A DNA stretch of 64,000 nt, taken from positions 1 through 64,000 of the forward strand of contig CAJQON010000018.1 of assembly GCA_905479995.1 (NCBI GenBank). Direction: 5' to 3'. This DNA comes from an uncultured Flavobacteriales bacterium (GTDB lineage Bacteria > Bacteroidota > Bacteroidia > Flavobacteriales_E > Vicingaceae). Below, in pieces: positions 3,401 to 41,844 of this stretch. Below the pieces are notes generated by a model that saw only the letters and a list, made by a program, of their open reading frames with translations, was not told the DNA's origin and did not search any database. A program made the position numbers and the translations under genes. The first letter of the stretch is position 1; each line of letters begins with the position of its first letter.

Positions 3401-3503
3401 AGGAAATCTTGTGCCTCTAGGAACTTATGTTTGGAGAATTGAGTTTATGGATACAAATGGACATCTTCATAAAGAAACTGGAAAGGTTAATGTAATTCGA
3501 TAA
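492..3503 (+). CDS. SprB-repeat and PKD-domain surface protein with T9SS type-B sorting domain
   Basis: 1003 residues. It begins with a Sec signal peptide (about residues 1-21, ending in FSQ). Residues 22-250 form an unrecognised domain, and 260-440 are Ig/PKD-like with Cys pairs. Residues about 442-740 hold two copies of a two-module block of SprB type (motifs CFGACDGSIEL, GGTPPYSYAW, VTVTDANGC). A PKD region follows (WEFGNGETS, WNWDFNN), and residues about 913-1003 are a CHU_C/type-B sorting domain (FVPNAFTPDFDGQNDGF, FNRWGEQVFES). The protein is predicted to be exported by the T9SS and to sit on the surface or be shed, as an adhesin-like molecule. The substrate is unknown. It resembles its left neighbour in the sorting domain and has its own terminator, so it appears monocistronic. 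Family assignment is firm; the biological role is inferred. Confidence 0.93.
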   Translation: MKKYSILLLLNIAFCAISFSQSNVLVVDYNNGFSSDQQSNNSIIYNRLLATQTSAVRVAAIPAVITKAQYDQVWVFGNPGIPGPATLNPLVNYMNTGGAVYIQSEIVCCNNPAMLADQLIDATVIVGGSITHTTTNNGFYQYNAYRPLSCTPIIGHGAAVRPFQGATQKHVLYEANAVCGGTVGPGVVVGVKFSACDMITGEGALAVTGDFNIFPTAGTCTSPGFLGTPNDFAVIDLIADLLPALACTPLTNPGGGTITLTANPQYFCGSTQLGWNFTGNPACNVIGCSNDTTYKWSMVSGEPINVGVNFSCDTCPYPIASPSITTTYTLSVIIGDTGLNCISYNVIPITVYPSQLQTNSGRDTTICLGSTVTLGGNPTAIGTGPFTYSWTPTTGLSNPAIANPVFTPTAAGVTQYIVQVTSPQCTGVDTIDVTTIICCPVRITDTNMVNATCFGACDGSIELIAIGGATSYSIDGINWVPGNIFNGLCQGQYTVYASDGACTDSVVVNITEPATLSIPAVITDASCSGNGDGKVVVTPQGGTPPYSYAWTVGSAGNLPVDSNLSAGPVTVTVTDANGCFLDSTFTIGISGSLSLDTIVSNVNCFGACDGSIELIAIGGATSYSIDGINWVPGNIFSNLCIGQYQLYATNGACTDSIVVNITEPISMSIPGVVTDATCFGYNDGQVVVAPQGGLPPYSYAWSSVFGGSSAVSNNLPAGPVTVTVTDANGCVLDSTFIVGEPASLNLVSFTGDTLAGCSPLQVNFSNTTNPTLFTSILWEFGNGETSTIDPATTTFTAPGDYNVKLTITNAIGCVGVLEEVAFVTVYEDPVAHFSTTQGDVTVFDPTFDFNDLSYYNIVSWNWDFNNLGTSSLQHPSFTFPDDTASHNITLTVVDNHGCTNTVNYTVKVKGEHAIFVPNAFTPDFDGQNDGFRPYGFGILPTGYSFLIFNRWGEQVFESNKIETAWFGDYKGNLVPLGTYVWRIEFMDTNGHLHKETGKVNVIR
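1848..1918 (+). repeat. 71-bp perfect direct repeat, copy 1 (second copy 2301-2371)
   Basis: The bases encoding CFGACDGSIELIAIGG and following residues are identical in the two copies, which lie 453 bp apart and in frame. The copies mark an internal duplication of a SprB module pair. Confidence 0.95.
2301..2371 (+). repeat. 71-bp perfect direct repeat, copy 2
   Basis: Identical to 1848-1918. Divergence increases on both sides, so the identity marks either recent duplication or gene conversion inside the SprB-repeat block. Confidence 0.95.
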
Positions 3504-3524
3504 CTTTTTCGATACAAAAATTGA

Positions 3525-3557
3525 AAGCCTTTGAGTTAAAACTCAAAGGCTTTTTTT
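3525..3557 (+). terminator. Rho-independent terminator
   Basis: A perfect 12-bp stem AAGCCTTTGAGT/ACTCAAAGGCTT with a TAAA loop runs into a T tract just after the stop of the SprB-repeat protein gene. Confidence 0.93.
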
Positions 3558-34344: not shown

Positions 34345-35379
34345 TTAACCCAACCATCTTAACACATTGTCTCTCCAAATTTCGTCAGCTTCGCGTTGGG
34401 TTAAAATATCTACCTCAACCGCAAAATCAATTACTCTACCCGGAAAAGAACTTCCTACCCCTTCCATTTCTCCTAAAGGATAGGGATCATCTAATCCTGC
34501 CACAATTTGAGAAACACCTACTCTTCTTTTCAATAACTCCAAGGTATAAGAATCGTGTACTAAGGTGTCAAAAAATAAGTTTTTATGCCCTAAAGATGCT
34601 CTAGGGTTTTCTGTTCCTTCAAACAAGTCTGGTCTTCCATCAAAACCTTGTAAACGTCTTCCGTAATTGGCAATGCCCAACATACAACCGTGCGCAAAAC
34701 AAGTTCTTACATTCGGAAATTTATTGGGAATATCGTTTAAGGTAAACAGGTGTAAGGTATCGGCACATTGTGCCATCATCCATACCAAATGAAAACGCCA
34801 ATATTGGTCTTTTAGGTTCACCATTTTTTCACCATCGTAAGGATGAATTTCTATGGCTAACCCATATTTATTGGCCAATTCAAAAATGGGAAATACTTCT
34901 ATGCTTGCAATAGAAGTCCACTCATTGTTTTTATTTAAAAAGTGAGTAGGCAAACACAACAGCTTTAATTTGTGCTCTGTAACACATCGTTCAATTTCTT
35001 CTAAAGCATCATCTAAATACAACGCCTGTACTACAAATCCGCATGTAAACTTGTCTGGGTTTTCGTGCTGAACAGAAGCATTAAAATCATTCTGCCACTT
35101 TATGGTATCCTTAGCATCTTGCCTGTCCCAACCGTTGCAATAAATTTGAGATAGATTTAACATTACGCCATGGTCAATGTTGTACTTGTCCATCCACTCC
35201 AGCTTTTCCTTTAAGAAAAAACTAGGGTCGGTAATAGGTCGAGCCCAATCTCCTTGGCGCATAAATTTCTTGTCATCATCTATCCAAAAAAGCTTTTTAT
35301 CTTTTAAAAACTTAGGAATTTGATTTGGCTCTGGCAAAATGTGCCCGTGTCCATTTATTCTTTTTCTATGCGCGCTCAT
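34345..35379 (-). CDS. 2-amino-3-carboxymuconate-6-semialdehyde decarboxylase (ACMSD-type amidohydrolase)
   Basis: 344 residues. The N-terminal metal motif is NGHGHILP (His11, His13), and later ligands are expected at IEIHPYDG, FAHGCM and the catalytic Asp of AGLDDPYPLG. This is the amidohydrolase-2/ACMSD fold, which decarboxylates 2-amino-3-carboxymuconate semialdehyde to 2-aminomuconate semialdehyde. The gene starts directly after the HAAO stop codon with no spacing, so the enzyme making its substrate is translated first from the same mRNA. Compared with pseudomonad ACMSD (about 335 residues) the length is normal. A close relative acting on another carboxylate is less likely given the partner. 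Confidence 0.87.
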   Translation of the reverse strand: MSAHRKRINGHGHILPEPNQIPKFLKDKKLFWIDDDKKFMRQGDWARPITDPSFFLKEKLEWMDKYNIDHGVMLNLSQIYCNGWDRQDAKDTIKWQNDFNASVQHENPDKFTCGFVVQALYLDDALEEIERCVTEHKLKLLCLPTHFLNKNNEWTSIASIEVFPIFELANKYGLAIEIHPYDGEKMVNLKDQYWRFHLVWMMAQCADTLHLFTLNDIPNKFPNVRTCFAHGCMLGIANYGRRLQGFDGRPDLFEGTENPRASLGHKNLFFDTLVHDSYTLELLKRRVGVSQIVAGLDDPYPLGEMEGVGSSFPGRVIDFAVEVDILTQREADEIWRDNVLRWLG

Positions 35380-35916
35380 TTAATCTTGCGTAAATTTTGG
35401 ATCAGTTTCCATTACATGGCTACAATTGTCGCAAGTTCTATTTTCTTCAGAACCATAATATCGTTTAAATACTTTTTGAAAATCGTTTTCGATGTCTACC
35501 AGTTGAAATCGCTCTTCGTATAGTTTGTGGTTACATTCATCACAAAACCACATTAGGCCATCTTGCATGTCGGTACCTTGTCTCACTCTTTCAATCACTA
35601 ATCCAATAGACCCTTCTGATCGCCATGGCGAGTGCGGAATGCTTTTAGGCAACAAAAACATTTCACCTTCTTTTATGGGTACATCAACCGCTTTTCCATC
35701 TAGTTGAACACGTACATTAATGTCTCCTTTAACTTGGTAAAACAACTCTTCACTTTCGTTAAAATGATAATCTTTTCGTGCATTTGGCCCACCAACAACC
35801 ATTACAATAAAATCTTTACCCAGTGGGTACATACTTTTGTTTGCAACAGGTGGTTTCAACTTATCTTTATTGTCTTCAATCCATTGGTTGAAGTTAAAAG
35901 GCATGGTTAAATTCAT
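35380..35916 (-). CDS. 3-hydroxyanthranilate 3,4-dioxygenase
   Basis: 178 residues, a cupin. The iron ligands His51, Glu57 and His95 occupy the family positions (DYHFNESEELFYQ, IPHSPWR), with substrate-binding Arg47 and Arg99. Two CxxC pairs near the C-terminus (Cys125/128 and Cys162/165) form the rubredoxin-like iron site of bacterial HAAO. It opens the ring of 3-hydroxyanthranilate to 2-amino-3-carboxymuconate semialdehyde in the kynurenine pathway, giving either NAD precursor (quinolinate) or, with the downstream ACMSD, catabolism. A start at Met5 (35904) is possible. A variant box TACCTTTA lies 16 nt upstream on the minus strand. Confidence 0.95.
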   Translation of the reverse strand: MNLTMPFNFNQWIEDNKDKLKPPVANKSMYPLGKDFIVMVVGGPNARKDYHFNESEELFYQVKGDINVRVQLDGKAVDVPIKEGEMFLLPKSIPHSPWRSEGSIGLVIERVRQGTDMQDGLMWFCDECNHKLYEERFQLVDIENDFQKVFKRYYGSEENRTCDNCSHVMETDPKFTQD

Positions 35917-35959: not shown

Positions 35960-35996
35960 AAAAGAAAAAACCCCCGCAAATAAATTTGCAGGGGTT
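35960..35996 (-). terminator. Terminator of the acidic secreted protein gene
   Basis: Hairpin AACCCCTGCAAA/TTTGCGGGGGTT read on the minus strand (one mismatch), followed by a T-rich tract. It separates the minus-strand gene at 36.0-37.1 kb from the HAAO-ACMSD pair. Confidence 0.82.
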
Positions 35997-36026
35997 CTTT
36001 TTATGTTGACTATTTTGCTAACTAAA

Positions 36027-37133
36027 CTATTTGATCAACACTTTGCTCGATTTAGATTTGTTTCCTTGTACAATTTGAAGGAGGTAAGTTCCTTTACCAA
36101 ATTCAGAAATATCAATATGGTTAGAGTATTTTCCTGAAAACTTATTTACTTTTTCAGTATAAATTTCTTTTCCTTGTAGGTCAAATATTTTTACTGTTAC
36201 AGGCTTTTTTGTGTTGGCCGAACTAAAATTTAAGTTAAATCTACCATCGTTAGGGTTAGGACTAAAAGTTAACTCATCTAACTCTAATTTATTTTTGTTT
36301 ATTCCTGTAGCTGTTTGTGGTAAGTCTTTTTCTAAGGCTTCAACCTCTTTAACATTAAAGCTAGATATAATTACAATGTGTTTTTCTTCTTTGCCATCAA
36401 CTTTTACATCTATAGTCATATTATGATCTTCAGTCATGGTTCCTCCATTACCAATAAACATCATTTTATGTTTTTTGTGCATGTTCTCCATGTCTCCTTC
36501 CTCCAGTTCAGTTTCAACACCATTCACAATTTTCTTTACCGTAACATTTCCATCATCATCAATCGATTTTATAATTTTTACCGAGTGCGCTTCTTTTCCA
36601 TCTTCATCGCTATCAATACTTATTTCAATGTTTCCAGTATTTTCATGAATAAATTCCATGTCTTTACCCATAGCGCCCATGTGCTTATGAAGATCTTCCA
36701 TGTTAATTTCTATCTCTTTCCCATTCACTACCATCTTCATTACGCCACCTTCACCTTTTAACATTTTCACGTCAAAATCCATTTCCACTTCTTCTCCATC
36801 ATCACTCTTAAATTTCATCACCTTAACGCCATCTTCACCATGTGTATCAAAGTCAAAATCAAAGTCCATTTCACTTGAGTCGCCATCAATCACCATTACT
36901 TTCATCATGTGTTTTAAAGGACCTGCCATATCTTCCAAAGAAGAAATCCAGTTCATGTCTTCAGAACAATCAAATGTTGAGTCTGTTACGGTTTCAACTC
37001 CGTTAACGATTTTCACAATTTTTATAGTGCATTTTTTATCATCTTCCCCATCATTCATGTTGGTAAAAGAAACTATTCCTGCGGCAAATGCAATTAACCC
37101 TATTGGAAGTAATACTGCTTTTAAATTTTTCAT
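36027..37133 (-). CDS. Acidic repeat-containing protein with T9SS type-A sorting domain
   Basis: 368 residues. A hydrophobic N-terminal export signal (about residues 4-23) is followed by a very acidic body (about 27-280) rich in Asp, Glu, Met and Lys, with recurring short strands such as KIVNGVET (twice), GEEVEMDF and VNGKEIEINMEDL. The last 80 residues are a type-A sorting domain (FSPNPNDGRFNLNF, IFDLQGKEIYTE, FGKGTYLLQIVQ, SKSSKVLIK). The VNGxExEI motif recurs in the periplasmic sensor domain of the divergent histidine kinase (residues 120-142 there), so the two probably share a fold or interact. The family is unknown to me; the surface location is inferred from the sorting domain. A TAGATTTG box lies 31 nt upstream. 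Confidence 0.85.
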   Translation of the reverse strand: MKNLKAVLLPIGLIAFAAGIVSFTNMNDGEDDKKCTIKIVKIVNGVETVTDSTFDCSEDMNWISSLEDMAGPLKHMMKVMVIDGDSSEMDFDFDFDTHGEDGVKVMKFKSDDGEEVEMDFDVKMLKGEGGVMKMVVNGKEIEINMEDLHKHMGAMGKDMEFIHENTGNIEISIDSDEDGKEAHSVKIIKSIDDDGNVTVKKIVNGVETELEEGDMENMHKKHKMMFIGNGGTMTEDHNMTIDVKVDGKEEKHIVIISSFNVKEVEALEKDLPQTATGINKNKLELDELTFSPNPNDGRFNLNFSSANTKKPVTVKIFDLQGKEIYTEKVNKFSGKYSNHIDISEFGKGTYLLQIVQGNKSKSSKVLIK

Positions 37134-37164
37134 ATTATTGTTTTTAGTTAAACTTTCTATACTG

Positions 37165-37172
37165 CAAATCTA
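37165..37172 (-). promoter_or_regulatory. -7 promoter box TAGATTTG of the acidic secreted protein gene
   Basis: Minus-strand TAGATTTG, 31 nt upstream of the ATG at 37133. The leader includes AAAGTTTAA (37148-37156), a near match to the AAAGTTAA repeats further upstream. Confidence 0.55.
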
Positions 37173-37212
37173 TTTCAACCAACGCTGTATTCATGTTAAC
37201 ACCTTCCTAAAG

Positions 37213-37261
37213 AAAGTTAAGGAAAAGTTAAAGTTTCAGTTTGAAGCGCTTTAAAAGTTAA
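37213..37261 (+). promoter_or_regulatory. Three AAAGTTAA direct repeats, candidate response-regulator sites
   Basis: AAAGTTAA occurs at 37213-37220, 37224-37231 and 37254-37261. The first two starts are 11 bp apart, one helical turn, as in PhoB/OmpR-type direct-repeat operators; the third overlaps the -7 box of the kinase gene. The site lies between the divergent secreted-protein and kinase genes. Confidence 0.45.
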
Positions 37262-37266
37262 ATTTG
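37240..37266 (+). promoter_or_regulatory. Promoter TTTG - 15 bp - TAAATTTG of the two-component operon
   Basis: -33-like TTTG at 37240-37243 and -7 box TAAATTTG at 37259-37266, 12 nt before the ATG at 37279. The spacing is shorter than usual. Confidence 0.6.
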
Positions 37267-37278
37267 TTCCAAGTAACC

Positions 37279-38859
37279 ATGAAAAAGAACAAGTTATATA
37301 GCCTAATCGCCTTAATGAGTATTTCATTAATAGGAATTATTTGGGTACAAGTATATTGGATAAACAATGGCTTAAAGGTAAAAGAAGCCCAGTTTGATCA
37401 ATTGGTTACTGATGCATTAAATAATGTGGTAATAGACATTGCCGAAAGCGAATCCATCGATTTTTTGCACGACCAATTGGCTGGAGTTACTTCTGAGTTT
37501 GTTATAGAAACTGATAGTTTGGATGTCGATTCACAAAAAATTAATACCTGGATTAATCATTTTACTGAAAGTGATTCTTCGGCCGAAATCAGTAGTACAT
37601 TCGATTATGAAGTGAGTTCTGACTTTGGTGAGAGCAAAATGAAAATGAAGATTAGCGTGAATGGGGAGGAACGAGAAATCGATGTTGAGGACAAGTTAAA
37701 AAAGCTGGAAGAGCTATTTGATAATGATTCTTTGGTTGTTTTAGGAAATAAAAAAATGGTGCTAACTAACAGGTTTAGCAATGTAATGGTTAAAATGGCC
37801 AAAGAGTTTAAATCTATTAAACAACCCGTGCACCATTTGCTAAAAGAGATAGACATTGAGCCTATTATTGAGGCGAGTTTAAATGAAAATGGAATAACTA
37901 CCCCGTTTTCTTTTGCGATTTTAGACGATGATAAAATAATCAAAGAATTTTCTTCTAAAAACTTTACATCCTCTAACAATACTTATGATGTGAGTTTATT
38001 TAAACACGATATTTTAGATAAGTCTGCTTTATTGTCTATTAGCTTTAGTGGTACAAAACATTACCTTCTAAAAACAATGTGGCTAATGGTGTTGTGCTCT
38101 ATTTTATTTACACTCATTATTATATTAACCTTTGCTTCTACTGTTCATTATATGTACAAGCAAAAAAAATTAGCCGAAATTAAAAATGACTTTATTAATA
38201 ACATGACCCACGAGTTTAAAACGCCCATTTCTACCATTTCTTTAGCAATAGACTCCATTACTCATCCTAAAATTATAGGCGACAAAATTCAAATTAATTA
38301 CTACGCTGATATTATTCGAAAAGAAAATAAACGAATGAATACTCAAGTGGAAAGTGTTTTAAATACTTCTTTGGCAGAAAAGGATGAATTGGAGCTAAAC
38401 AAAACTGCTGTTTCTTTAACAGCCTTTTTAACAAAAATTGAATCTCGCTTAAAACTACCAGTTCAGGCAGTAAATGCAAAATTTGTAATTCAAAACCATG
38501 CTAAAGATGTTACATTAACCGTAGATGAATCTCATTTACAAAATGCCATTTGTAACTTAATTGATAATGCATTAAAATATTCGGATGAGCCTGCTCAAGT
38601 AGAATTAAAAACTAACATAGAAGGAAATTTAATTCATTTTACCATTGCCGATAAAGGAATTGGAATGAACAGCGAAACACAGAAAAAGGTGTTTGATAAG
38701 TTTTACCGCGTACAGTCTGGAAACATCCATAAAGTAAAAGGTTTTGGAATTGGGTTAAGCTATGTAAAAGCAATCGTTAACGCCCATCATGGCAAAATAT
38801 ACCTGTCTTCAAAATTGAATGTTGGAACAAAAGTGACCATTAGCTTACCGCTCAAATGA
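37279..38859 (+). CDS. Sensor histidine kinase (RprX-like)
   Basis: 526 residues from the ATG at 37279; an in-frame TTG at 37264 lies inside the -7 box and is unlikely. TM1 spans about residues 9-27, a periplasmic sensor domain about 28-262, TM2 about 265-290. The HisKA motif NNMTHEFKTPIST has the phospho-acceptor His311, and the ATPase domain has NLIDNALKYS, DKGIGM and GFGIGLSYVKAIV. There is no evident HAMP or PAS domain. The sensor domain contains KMKISVNGEEREIDVEDK (residues about 123-140), similar to motifs in the secreted protein encoded divergently. It overlaps the regulator gene by 4 nt (ATGA). The signal is unknown; the shared motif hints at envelope or secretion state. Confidence 0.92.
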   Translation: MKKNKLYSLIALMSISLIGIIWVQVYWINNGLKVKEAQFDQLVTDALNNVVIDIAESESIDFLHDQLAGVTSEFVIETDSLDVDSQKINTWINHFTESDSSAEISSTFDYEVSSDFGESKMKMKISVNGEEREIDVEDKLKKLEELFDNDSLVVLGNKKMVLTNRFSNVMVKMAKEFKSIKQPVHHLLKEIDIEPIIEASLNENGITTPFSFAILDDDKIIKEFSSKNFTSSNNTYDVSLFKHDILDKSALLSISFSGTKHYLLKTMWLMVLCSILFTLIIILTFASTVHYMYKQKKLAEIKNDFINNMTHEFKTPISTISLAIDSITHPKIIGDKIQINYYADIIRKENKRMNTQVESVLNTSLAEKDELELNKTAVSLTAFLTKIESRLKLPVQAVNAKFVIQNHAKDVTLTVDESHLQNAICNLIDNALKYSDEPAQVELKTNIEGNLIHFTIADKGIGMNSETQKKVFDKFYRVQSGNIHKVKGFGIGLSYVKAIVNAHHGKIYLSSKLNVGTKVTISLPLK

Positions 38860-39542
38860 TTCAAAAAAAGCACATATTATTAGTTGAAGACGAGGAAAAC
38901 TTTGGAACGGTTTTAAAAAACTACTTAGAGCTAAGTAATTATGCGGTAACACATGCTATTAATGGAAAATTAGGATTAACCGCTTTCCGACAAGCAAGCT
39001 ACGACCTCTGTATTTTTGATGTAATGATGCCTGAGATGGACGGTTTTACATTGGCCAGAGAGATTAGGAAATTTAACACTGATGTCCCTATTTTATTTTT
39101 AACGGCAAAAACACAGAAGCACGATATGATAGAAGGTTATCAAATAGGTGGAGACGATTACATTACCAAACCGTTTGATACTGAAGTCCTATTGCTTAAA
39201 ATTAACGCGGTACTTTCAAGAAAAAGCAGTTTGGTAGAACAGCCTTGCAAACATACTATTGGCTTATTTAATTTTAATGCTGACACCCGAGAATTGAGTT
39301 TAGAAAATGTCATACAAAAGCTCTCTCCTAAAGAAGCCAAACTCCTTCAGTTGCTTTGTGAAAATAGGAATGAGGTAGTTTCTAGAGATCTTGCACTCAA
39401 CAACATCTGGGGCGACAATAATTATTTTACTACTAGAAGTATGGATGTTTTTATTACCAAATTGCGTAAGCATTTAAAAGCAGATACTTCCATAGAAATA
39501 ATTAATGTACACGGGAATGGGTTTAGATTGTTGGCAAAATAA
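38856..39542 (+). CDS. OmpR/PhoB-family response regulator (RprY-like)
   Basis: 228 residues. Receiver domain 1-120 with acidic pair Glu11/Asp12, phospho-acceptor Asp55 (FDVMMPEMDG), switch Thr in LFLTAKT and Lys in YITKPF. The C-terminal winged helix (about 130-228) includes LSPKEAKLLQLLCENRNEVVSR and the recognition helix region RSMDVFITKLRKHLK. It is coupled to the kinase by ATGA overlap. Candidate binding sites are the AAAGTTAA repeats upstream of the operon, two of them 11 bp apart, suggesting autoregulation and control of the divergent secreted protein. Confidence 0.94.
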   Translation: MIQKKHILLVEDEENFGTVLKNYLELSNYAVTHAINGKLGLTAFRQASYDLCIFDVMMPEMDGFTLAREIRKFNTDVPILFLTAKTQKHDMIEGYQIGGDDYITKPFDTEVLLLKINAVLSRKSSLVEQPCKHTIGLFNFNADTRELSLENVIQKLSPKEAKLLQLLCENRNEVVSRDLALNNIWGDNNYFTTRSMDVFITKLRKHLKADTSIEIINVHGNGFRLLAK

Positions 39543-40398: not shown

Positions 40399-41139
40399 TT
40401 AGTTGACTGTAAATTTTATGGGTACCGTATATTTTACCGCTACAACTCTTCCATTGTGTTTGGCCGGATTTAATTGAGGCAAACTTTGTACAGCATTAAA
40501 CGCTTGTCGTTCTAATTCTCTAGGAATTTTGTTTTTGTCTTGCCCTTGCAATTTAACGTTTACAATTTCCCCTTTTTTGTTCACTTCAAAATAAACATAC
40601 GCTTTGTAAACCGCTTTTCCTTTCATTTTGATTGTAGCCGGAACTTTTATTTTTTTAGCAAAGTGCTTAAACATTTTTTGTTGGGTACATTTTGTTCGTT
40701 CAAATTCATCCATCGCAGCGCACTCATCATAATGCGGCATTCTTCCTGCATCTCCCCTTGGAGCTTCCTCTTCTTTTACTTCCTCTTTTGGCTCTTTCCA
40801 TTCATTAGGGTCGTAATAAGGTTCTTTTTCCTTATCTTCTTTCTCTTCAGGAATAACCTCATTATTTTCTACTGGTTTAAACTCGTGGGTTTTAACTACG
40901 GGTTTTTCTACCTTTTTTTTTACTTTCTCAGGTTCATCCTCAATAATTTTAAATGGATCAATCGGATCAATGTCCCATTCTATTTCGTCAACCACTTCGC
41001 CATATAATACTGGCATGTAATTGGGCGAAGTCCACTCAAAAGCAACCAATGTTAGCCCTCCAGCCACAATTAATCCTATCTGAAAAAAGATTCCTCTTAG
41101 TTTGTTTAATTTCTTGTTTTCTTTTTTAAACTGGTTCAT
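40399..41139 (-). CDS. TonB-like energy transducer (paralogue 2)
   Basis: 246 residues. A cytoplasmic basic start (MNQFKKENKKLNKLRG) leads into one membrane anchor (FFQIGLIVAGGLTLVAFEW). A long, highly charged Lys/Glu/Pro spacer follows (about 45-140), then a TonB C-terminal domain (about 155-246, YVYFEVNKKGEIVNVKLQG, ending VKYTVPIKFTVN). Two Cys (CAAMDEFERTKC) precede the domain. It would couple the proton motive force to TonB-dependent receptors. It lies 27 nt after a paralogue whose first 40 residues are nearly the same. No ExbBD or receptor gene is nearby. Confidence 0.87.
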   Translation of the reverse strand: MNQFKKENKKLNKLRGIFFQIGLIVAGGLTLVAFEWTSPNYMPVLYGEVVDEIEWDIDPIDPFKIIEDEPEKVKKKVEKPVVKTHEFKPVENNEVIPEEKEDKEKEPYYDPNEWKEPKEEVKEEEAPRGDAGRMPHYDECAAMDEFERTKCTQQKMFKHFAKKIKVPATIKMKGKAVYKAYVYFEVNKKGEIVNVKLQGQDKNKIPRELERQAFNAVQSLPQLNPAKHNGRVVAVKYTVPIKFTVN

Positions 41140-41166
41140 GTTTTGGTGTTTTTAGTGAGTTGGTTA

Positions 41167-41844
41167 TTAATGTGATTCAAATTTTATTCTAAAATTGAAG
41201 CTTACATCTACTGCTTTACCACGTTGCTTTCCTGGTTTCCAATTCGGCATGGCCTGCACTACGCGCACAGCTTCTTTATCTATTCTTGGACTTACTCCTC
41301 TCATCACTTCAACATCTTTAATTTCTCCTTTTTTATTGACCAAAAACTTTAAATAAACTGTTCCACCAATACCAGCTTGTAATTCTGGTTTAGGGTAATG
41401 CAATTCTTCATTCAAGTATTTAATGCGTGCTTTATTTCCTCCAACAAACGTTGGCATTTTTTCAACTATTGTAAATATCTCTGGCGGAGCAGGTGTTGTA
41501 ATTGGTTCTGTATATTCAGGCACAAACTCAGGCTCAACAACTGGTGCTGGGTTAACAACTGGGGCAGGTTCTGGAAGATTTTTTACAATTACAAAATGAT
41601 CGGGATCAAATTTTGGTTGCACTATTTTAACTTTTGGTTTTACCGGATTTGGTTGATACGTAATAGGTGGTAACTCAATTGGTGCTTCTTCTGGACCATC
41701 TGAACCAACAGGAACATCTAATTTGTAAGAACTTTGCCATTCAAAAGCAAGTAAGGTTAATCCACCGGCTACAATTAATCCGATTTGAAAAAATATTCCT
41801 CGTAATTTTTCGAGCTTCTTGTTGCTCTTTTTAAAGTGGTTCAT
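41167..41844 (-). CDS. TonB-like energy transducer (paralogue 1)
   Basis: 225 residues with the same architecture as the next gene: MNHFKKSNKKLEKLRG, membrane anchor FFQIGLIVAGGLTLLAFEW, a Pro-rich spacer (repeated PAPVV/PEF elements) and a C-terminal TonB domain beginning IVEKMPTFVGG and containing YPKPELQAGIGGTVYLKFLV and VMRGVSPRIDKEAVRVVQAM. This domain is closer to the Bacteroidota consensus (MPxFPGG) than that of the neighbour. The tandem suggests duplication followed by divergence of spacer and receptor-contact regions. Confidence 0.9.
   Translation of the reverse strand: MNHFKKSNKKLEKLRGIFFQIGLIVAGGLTLLAFEWQSSYKLDVPVGSDGPEEAPIELPPITYQPNPVKPKVKIVQPKFDPDHFVIVKNLPEPAPVVNPAPVVEPEFVPEYTEPITTPAPPEIFTIVEKMPTFVGGNKARIKYLNEELHYPKPELQAGIGGTVYLKFLVNKKGEIKDVEVMRGVSPRIDKEAVRVVQAMPNWKPGKQRGKAVDVSFNFRIKFESH

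Follow-up and report, generated by a model that had tools for sequence, protein, structure and literature searches.

A sensor histidine kinase, an OmpR-family response regulator and a divergently encoded secreted protein, hereafter called the partner, form with very little doubt a conserved three-gene module. They were found in a window of 64,000 nt, the whole stretch of DNA analysed, from a contig of an uncultured Flavobacteriales bacterium. The best explanation that we can offer, at about even probability, is a CpxP/PorA-like feedback module, in which an RprXY-like pair would use the divergently encoded T9SS cargo as its accessory protein. No description of the module was found in the open-access literature searched. 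The first-pass annotation knew of no described system of this kind; this is nearly right, but there are precedents in PorA-PorXY (PMC7712824), where a T9SS-tail protein acts on a kinase pathway, and in CpxP-CpxAR, where the kinase is acted on by an accessory protein of the periplasm. The features of the locus are the following.

35964..36004, no strand assigned: hairpin with a U-run in the interval between the partner gene and a 3-hydroxyanthranilate dioxygenase gene (-27 kcal/mol, z -4.2)
36027..37133, minus strand: partner gene (368 aa), from the ORF call
36033..36260, minus strand: T9SS C-terminal sorting domain of the partner, residues 292-367, from its Por_Secre_tail match
36477..36587, minus strand: further strand-NG-strand-helix unit of the partner, residues 183-219 (VKIIKSIDDDGNVTVKKIVNGVETELEEGDM...), from alignment and model
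36663..36743, minus strand: shared unit in the partner, residues 131-157 (strand, NG turn, strand, helix)
36969..37028, minus strand: N-terminal family signature of the partner, residues 36-55 (KIVKIVNGVETVTDSTF), recognisable class-wide
37165..37172, minus strand: -7 box of the partner gene, at 22 nt from the operator: CAAATCTA, or TAGATTTG when read on the strand of the partner
37195..37231, plus strand: putative operator of GTTAA repeats (one degenerate) with 10/11-nt spacing, from the promoter alignment
37259..37266, plus strand: -7 box of the kinase-regulator operon, TAAATTTG, 27 nt from the operator
37279..38859, plus strand: sensor histidine kinase (526 aa), from the ORF, Pfam and model
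37465..37815, plus strand: variable insert within the sensor of the kinase (residues 63-179), from alignment and model
37639..37719, plus strand: kinase-sensor copy of the shared unit, MKMKISVNGEEREIDVEDKLKKLEELF (residues 121-147), from alignment and profile comparison
38856..39542, plus strand: OmpR-family response regulator, with Response_reg and Trans_reg_C domains

The partner is an acidic, Met- and His-rich protein with an N-terminal signal-like segment, and it is built of repeated strand-NG-strand-helix (beta-hairpin) units. Its sorting domain matches Por_Secre_tail with an E value of 1.4e-13 and exceeds the curated cut-offs of both PF18962 (51.3 bits, cut-off 27) and TIGR04183 (47.8 bits, cut-off 23), which identifies the partner as a predicted T9SS type A cargo. 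Pfam searches of the partner detected only this tail, with no FimH-like or other domain ahead of it, and no CpxP-type Pfam domain was found up to E = 1. The signature of the partner family near the N-terminus reads V-K-I-x-K-x-x-x-G-x-x-T-x-I-D-T-T. The AlphaFold model of the protein has a pLDDT of 33, too low for folds to be compared. Downstream of the gene, the hairpin with its U-run is likely to be the terminator of the partner transcript. This strong hairpin separates the partner gene from the genes for a 3-hydroxyanthranilate dioxygenase-like cupin and an amidohydrolase (window positions 34345-35916), which adjoin the module and are syntenic in the genus.

The kinase has two transmembrane helices, a periplasmic sensor, a HisKA domain (residues 302-364) and a HATPase domain (residues 416-525). 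Its sensor consists of a conserved membrane-near part, which is perhaps PAS-like judging from the model, and of the variable insert; the membrane-near core is modelled with fair confidence and the insert has pLDDT values below 50. Attempts to name the fold of the sensor by structure comparison (VIA-align) gave mixed matches with Z below 7, including a kinase PAS domain (3cwf, Z 5.3), all too weak to identify it. The kinase and regulator genes overlap by 4 nt (38856-38859) and make up one operon. The regulator is nearest to RprY (NF051850, 281 bits), without reaching the equivalog level, for which the cut-off is 370 bits. In one related genome (G002, locus L050, 5073-6693), the kinase orthologue is split between two frames, by a sequencing error or because the gene is broken.

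The partner was found in nine of the 120 relatives searched, and a kinase orthologue adjoins it each time, although contig breaks fall within the kinase in two of these nine genomes. The relatives devoid of the partner have no such kinase orthologue, just distant RprX-like kinases. Judging from named relatives, the window belongs to the Flavobacteriales and probably to the Vicingaceae. The first-pass annotation had proposed conserved gene adjacency as a check, and the pair is indeed adjacent in 10 of the 10 related genomes that have it, and far beyond the genus. Within the genus, adjacency is weak evidence because the flanks are syntenic there; the argument rests on distant lineages, on a genome of a different genus (G040) whose cassette lies in other surroundings, and on sites where the cassette is absent. 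At these sites, in genus-mates that lack it, the two flanking genes face each other directly, and exactly the three genes of the cassette are cleanly gone. The three genes are gained or lost together.

The adjacency extends across the class. In a first round of profile search, six of six distant matches were T9SS-tail proteins divergent from an RprX-like kinase. With a broader search, 26 of the 31 distant non-PDZ members adjoin an RprX-like kinase, a count that includes the first six and leaves out one member that ends its contig and one that was found via its kinase. Five partners have no T9SS domain (L080, L081, L097, L102 and L116). Four genes of the partner family have no neighbouring kinase and keep a TTAAC array ahead of a -7 box (L136 in G130, L138 in G192, L137 in G261 and L103 in G104), and are likely regulated in trans; in G104, an RprX-like kinase is encoded approximately 3 kb from the partner-family gene. 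We also observed a second family of T9SS-tail proteins, ~500-560 residues long, that begin with this IDTT signature, continue with PDZ repeats and are not encoded beside a kinase (e.g. L086, L089, L091, L093, L101 and L111-L113). Many of the PDZ-type relatives examined have TTAAC repeats ahead of a -7 box.

Alignment of the divergent promoters of ten orthologues revealed a near-invariant block, AAAGAAAGTTAAGGAAAAGTTAAAGTT, and -7 boxes that follow the Bacteroidota pattern TAnnTTTG (CAAAnnTA on the opposite strand). At least three GTTAA in 10/11-nt register are present in 31 of 34 intergenic regions, with none expected from dinucleotide shuffles. Most often, a distance of exactly 22 nt separates the array from the partner -7 box, and one of 26-28 nt separates it from the kinase -7 box. 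OmpR-type regulators bind direct repeats of 10/11 nt. Given the fixed spacing of the array to both -7 boxes, the regulator almost certainly drives both sides, and we hold it to be highly probable that it controls the partner gene in particular; the position of the operator points to activation. In the window genome, the operator is the sole perfect site of its spacing. Its core, AAAGAAAGTTAAGGAAAAGTTAA, is present in 10 of 10 genomes with the cassette, seven of which have a single copy, and is absent from five genus-mates that lack the cassette.

Second copies of the operator lie ahead of GLPGLI / OMP_b-brl_3 genes in two genomes (L144 in G009, 3501-3537; L145 in G005, 3401-3437), and this GLPGLI/outer-membrane beta-barrel operon is a possible further target of the regulator. 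A second site in G006 (L146) adjoins unrelated genes and is probably there by chance. A phylum-wide pattern made of a -7 box and two GTTAA has matches in 98 of 395 genomes, and hence the box is a general RprY/PhoP one rather than private to the module. In Riemerella anatipestifer, PhoP has the DAP-seq motif TTTAACA with sites that include its own promoter (PMC9603813).

The partner and the sensor insert of the kinase of the window share a hairpin-helix unit. The two stretches that had drawn attention to it do occur where they had been reported: the secreted protein contains VMKMVVNGKEIEINMEDL and the kinase contains KMKISVNGEEREIDVEDK. The DNA similarity claimed along with them is confirmed as well: an inverted repeat (36706-36741 / 37644-37679) has 75% identity over 36 nt and is the longest inverted pair within the 6.5 kb examined. 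The consensus common to both proteins, M-K-x-x-[VI]-N-G...I, is kept in the orthologues of each. In the partner, K133, M134, N137, G138, E140 and E142 are invariant across 10 species, based on the alignment of 10 secreted orthologues. In the eight kinase orthologues aligned, M-K-I-x-[VI]-N-G-x4-I is constant. The predicted order of secondary structures is the same, with strands at 131-136 and 139-144 and a helix at 145-153 in the partner, and strands at 121-127 and 130-135 and a helix at 137-147 in the kinase, with pLDDT values below 50 in both.

The similarity between the two units exceeds chance. BLASTP of the partner versus the kinase gave an E value of 0.002 on the shared segment, for one single comparison. 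Profile-profile alignment selected exactly this segment, with a score of 33.7, where 200 column-shuffled controls averaged 14.3 and reached 25.0 at most. When approximately 650 real ORFs were scored, the kinase of the window came out on top of the ~610 ORFs outside of the secreted-protein family, and one kinase orthologue was also among the best non-family ORFs, in the same register. That register is kept in most kinase orthologues. A search with an HMM of the motif alone picked up the window kinase at no better than E 0.026, and its orthologues had E values of 1.5 or worse, which is noise. The similarity is thus strongest in the species of the window, and the orthologous kinases retain just M-K-I-x-[VI]-N-G-x4-I.

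The first interpretation is supported in part. The link between the two genes has strong support, for which conserved adjacency, the common operator, gain or loss of the module as one and the covariation described below are firmer grounds than the motif, the lesser part of the finding. A duplicated domain had been claimed; the similarity beyond chance stands, but a unit of ~25 residues could be convergent, and as the motif HMM misses the orthologous kinases as partner-like, we lowered the domain-duplication claim. The data are compatible with either a common origin of the two units or their convergence on an NG beta-hairpin with a helix after it. The further copy reported in the partner, GEEVEMDFDVKM, is a repeat, but a weaker one than those at residues 37-54 (KIVKIVNGVETVTDSTF) and 198-214 (VTVKKIVNGVETELEEG). 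Conserved in the two genes across 8-10 species at ~40-63% protein identity, the shared unit is old and under constraint.

The amino-acid composition of the partner covaries with that of the sensor insert in the cognate kinase (mean r 0.41, z 5.6), a value that none of 10,000 permutations reached, and it still does after regression on GC content (r 0.37, z 5.1). The correlation with the sensor core is far below (r 0.18, or 0.11 after GC regression), and no covariation was detected between the partner and the core of the kinase (r 0.08, p 0.11). Part of the partner-insert covariation could come from loose constraint on both extracytoplasmic sequences. Sequence similarity is also higher between cognate than between non-cognate partners and kinases (p 0.012), a modest effect supported by few lineages. 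In two genomes of one genus (L097 in G424 and L102 in G110), the partner has only ~113 residues, carries a long proline-rich tail and is devoid of a T9SS domain, and the kinases paired with these two partners also have a proline-rich stretch at the sensor insert. As some partners are devoid of the T9SS tail, the compartment shared by the two proteins would be the periplasm. That the partner acts on its own kinase seems to us close to an even chance, on the low side.

The first-pass annotation had suggested that the exported protein may be a ligand, competitor or reporter for the kinase, which is a sensible proposal; among such roles, we now favour that of an accessory protein in a feedback loop. 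The mechanism that we favour is the following. The phosphorylated regulator would bind the GTTAA array between the genes and switch on both of them; we infer both the binding and its sign. The partner would then cross the periplasm and, in most lineages, exit through the T9SS. While in the periplasm, it would contact the kinase at the variable sensor insert, where a similar unit is present in the lineage of the window, and this contact would adjust kinase activity, most likely by damping it, as CpxP does on CpxA. Export would set the amount of partner left in the periplasm and would thereby couple the switch to secretion. The partner would thus feed back on the kinase. Regulators of the FlgM or ExsE type follow the same idea, in that their export gives a readout of secretion, and differ from the partner in acting on cytoplasmic factors and in their link to type III secretion; we know of no T9SS example of such an export-coupled regulator. 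The full version of the idea, in which the kinase would read secretion flux via its own T9SS cargo, is in our view rather unlikely; it would have the partner and the sensor insert coevolve in each lineage of the class.

An accessory role similar to that of CpxP fits the data better than a pure surface relay, and a simple output protein is nearly as likely. If the partner were an output only, the two-component system would sense an outside signal (cationic agents or ions, for instance) and have the acidic surface protein as its main product; the partner would never touch the kinase, and the resemblance of the hairpins would be generic or convergent. We consider this a serious possibility, if somewhat under even. 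Most of the data fit it, as the operator and the adjacency are equally well explained, the motif similarity is weak in the orthologous kinases, and the partners without neighbouring kinases keep the operator as members of a regulon would. Moreover, most cassette genomes have a single copy of the operator, which makes the partner the apparent main target of the regulator. Nevertheless, simple output does not readily explain why the covariation in composition is specific to the sensor insert, why the motif register is preserved in most orthologues, why cognate pairs are more similar than non-cognate ones, or why a Pro-rich stretch is common to both members of the L097 and L102 pairs.

An improbable alternative is that the exported partner, held at the surface, senses the outside and activates the kinase after export, as a positive regulator in the manner of PorA. 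A T9SS-tail protein, PorA, acts upstream of PorXY-SigP in Porphyromonas gingivalis (PMC7712824), and most partners do have the tail. However, tail-less partners are found beside the same type of kinase and operator, an inner-membrane sensor is out of reach for a surface protein without a carrier, and Pfam searches found no FimH-like or other domain ahead of the tail of the partner. It is very improbable that the resemblance merely reflects a recent, functionally meaningless copying of a DNA segment between close genes, as the inverted 75% DNA identity over 36 nt between divergent genes might suggest, because 8-10 species have the unit in the two genes, with K, M, N and G at invariant positions, and because the module and its operator would be left unexplained.

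The feedback reading can be compared with several known systems, of which CpxP-CpxAR of Escherichia coli is the closest in logic. The cpxP gene is divergent from those of its two-component system and driven by CpxR. CpxP is an inhibitor of the sensor CpxA, to which it binds (PMC4160245). As in that system, the module pairs a two-component system with a putative accessory protein that would reach the periplasm by export and whose gene is divergent, with a putative operator in between. Unlike the all-helical CpxP, the partner is acidic and hairpin-rich, usually has a T9SS tail, resembles part of the sensor and gives no CpxP-type Pfam match, and its contact with the sensor is putative.

For the T9SS-tail protein, the closest system is PorA-PorX-PorY-SigP of P. 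gingivalis, in which PorA acts upstream of the sensor kinase and is thus also linked to a kinase pathway, as described in the available text of PMC7712824. In that same text, PorA has a FimH-like domain and reportedly reaches the surface without the T9SS translocon, and the system controls T9SS genes through a sigma factor, with no shared divergent operator described; in the module, the putative site of an OmpR-type regulator sits between the two genes. The module belongs to neither of these systems.

RprX-RprY of Bacteroidota has a kinase and a regulator of the same families, and a GTTAA-type box is found upstream of canonical RprX genes. However, the canonical copy examined (L151) adjoins comF with no secreted partner, and the regulator of the module scores below the RprY cut-off. 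PhoPR of R. anatipestifer resembles the module by its TTTAACA motif and the binding of its own promoter, and its direct targets include GLPGLI and outer-membrane proteins, like the genes behind the second operators; the accessible part of PMC9603813 reports no divergent T9SS partner.

Kinases of the RprX type are common in Bacteroidota, and little is known of the signals that they perceive. The combination of a conserved, gene-linked secreted partner and a nearly invariant promoter design offers direct access to what these kinases sense, and allows a regulon of T9SS proteins to be predicted across the class on the basis of sequence alone. Feedback of the partner on the kinase, if it occurs, would represent a control loop coupled to T9SS secretion, unlike the PorXY-SigP route. 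Lastly, outside of the module, the window contains two tandem, similar genes for TonB-like membrane-anchored proteins that differ in their linkers (40399-41844), a local duplication.
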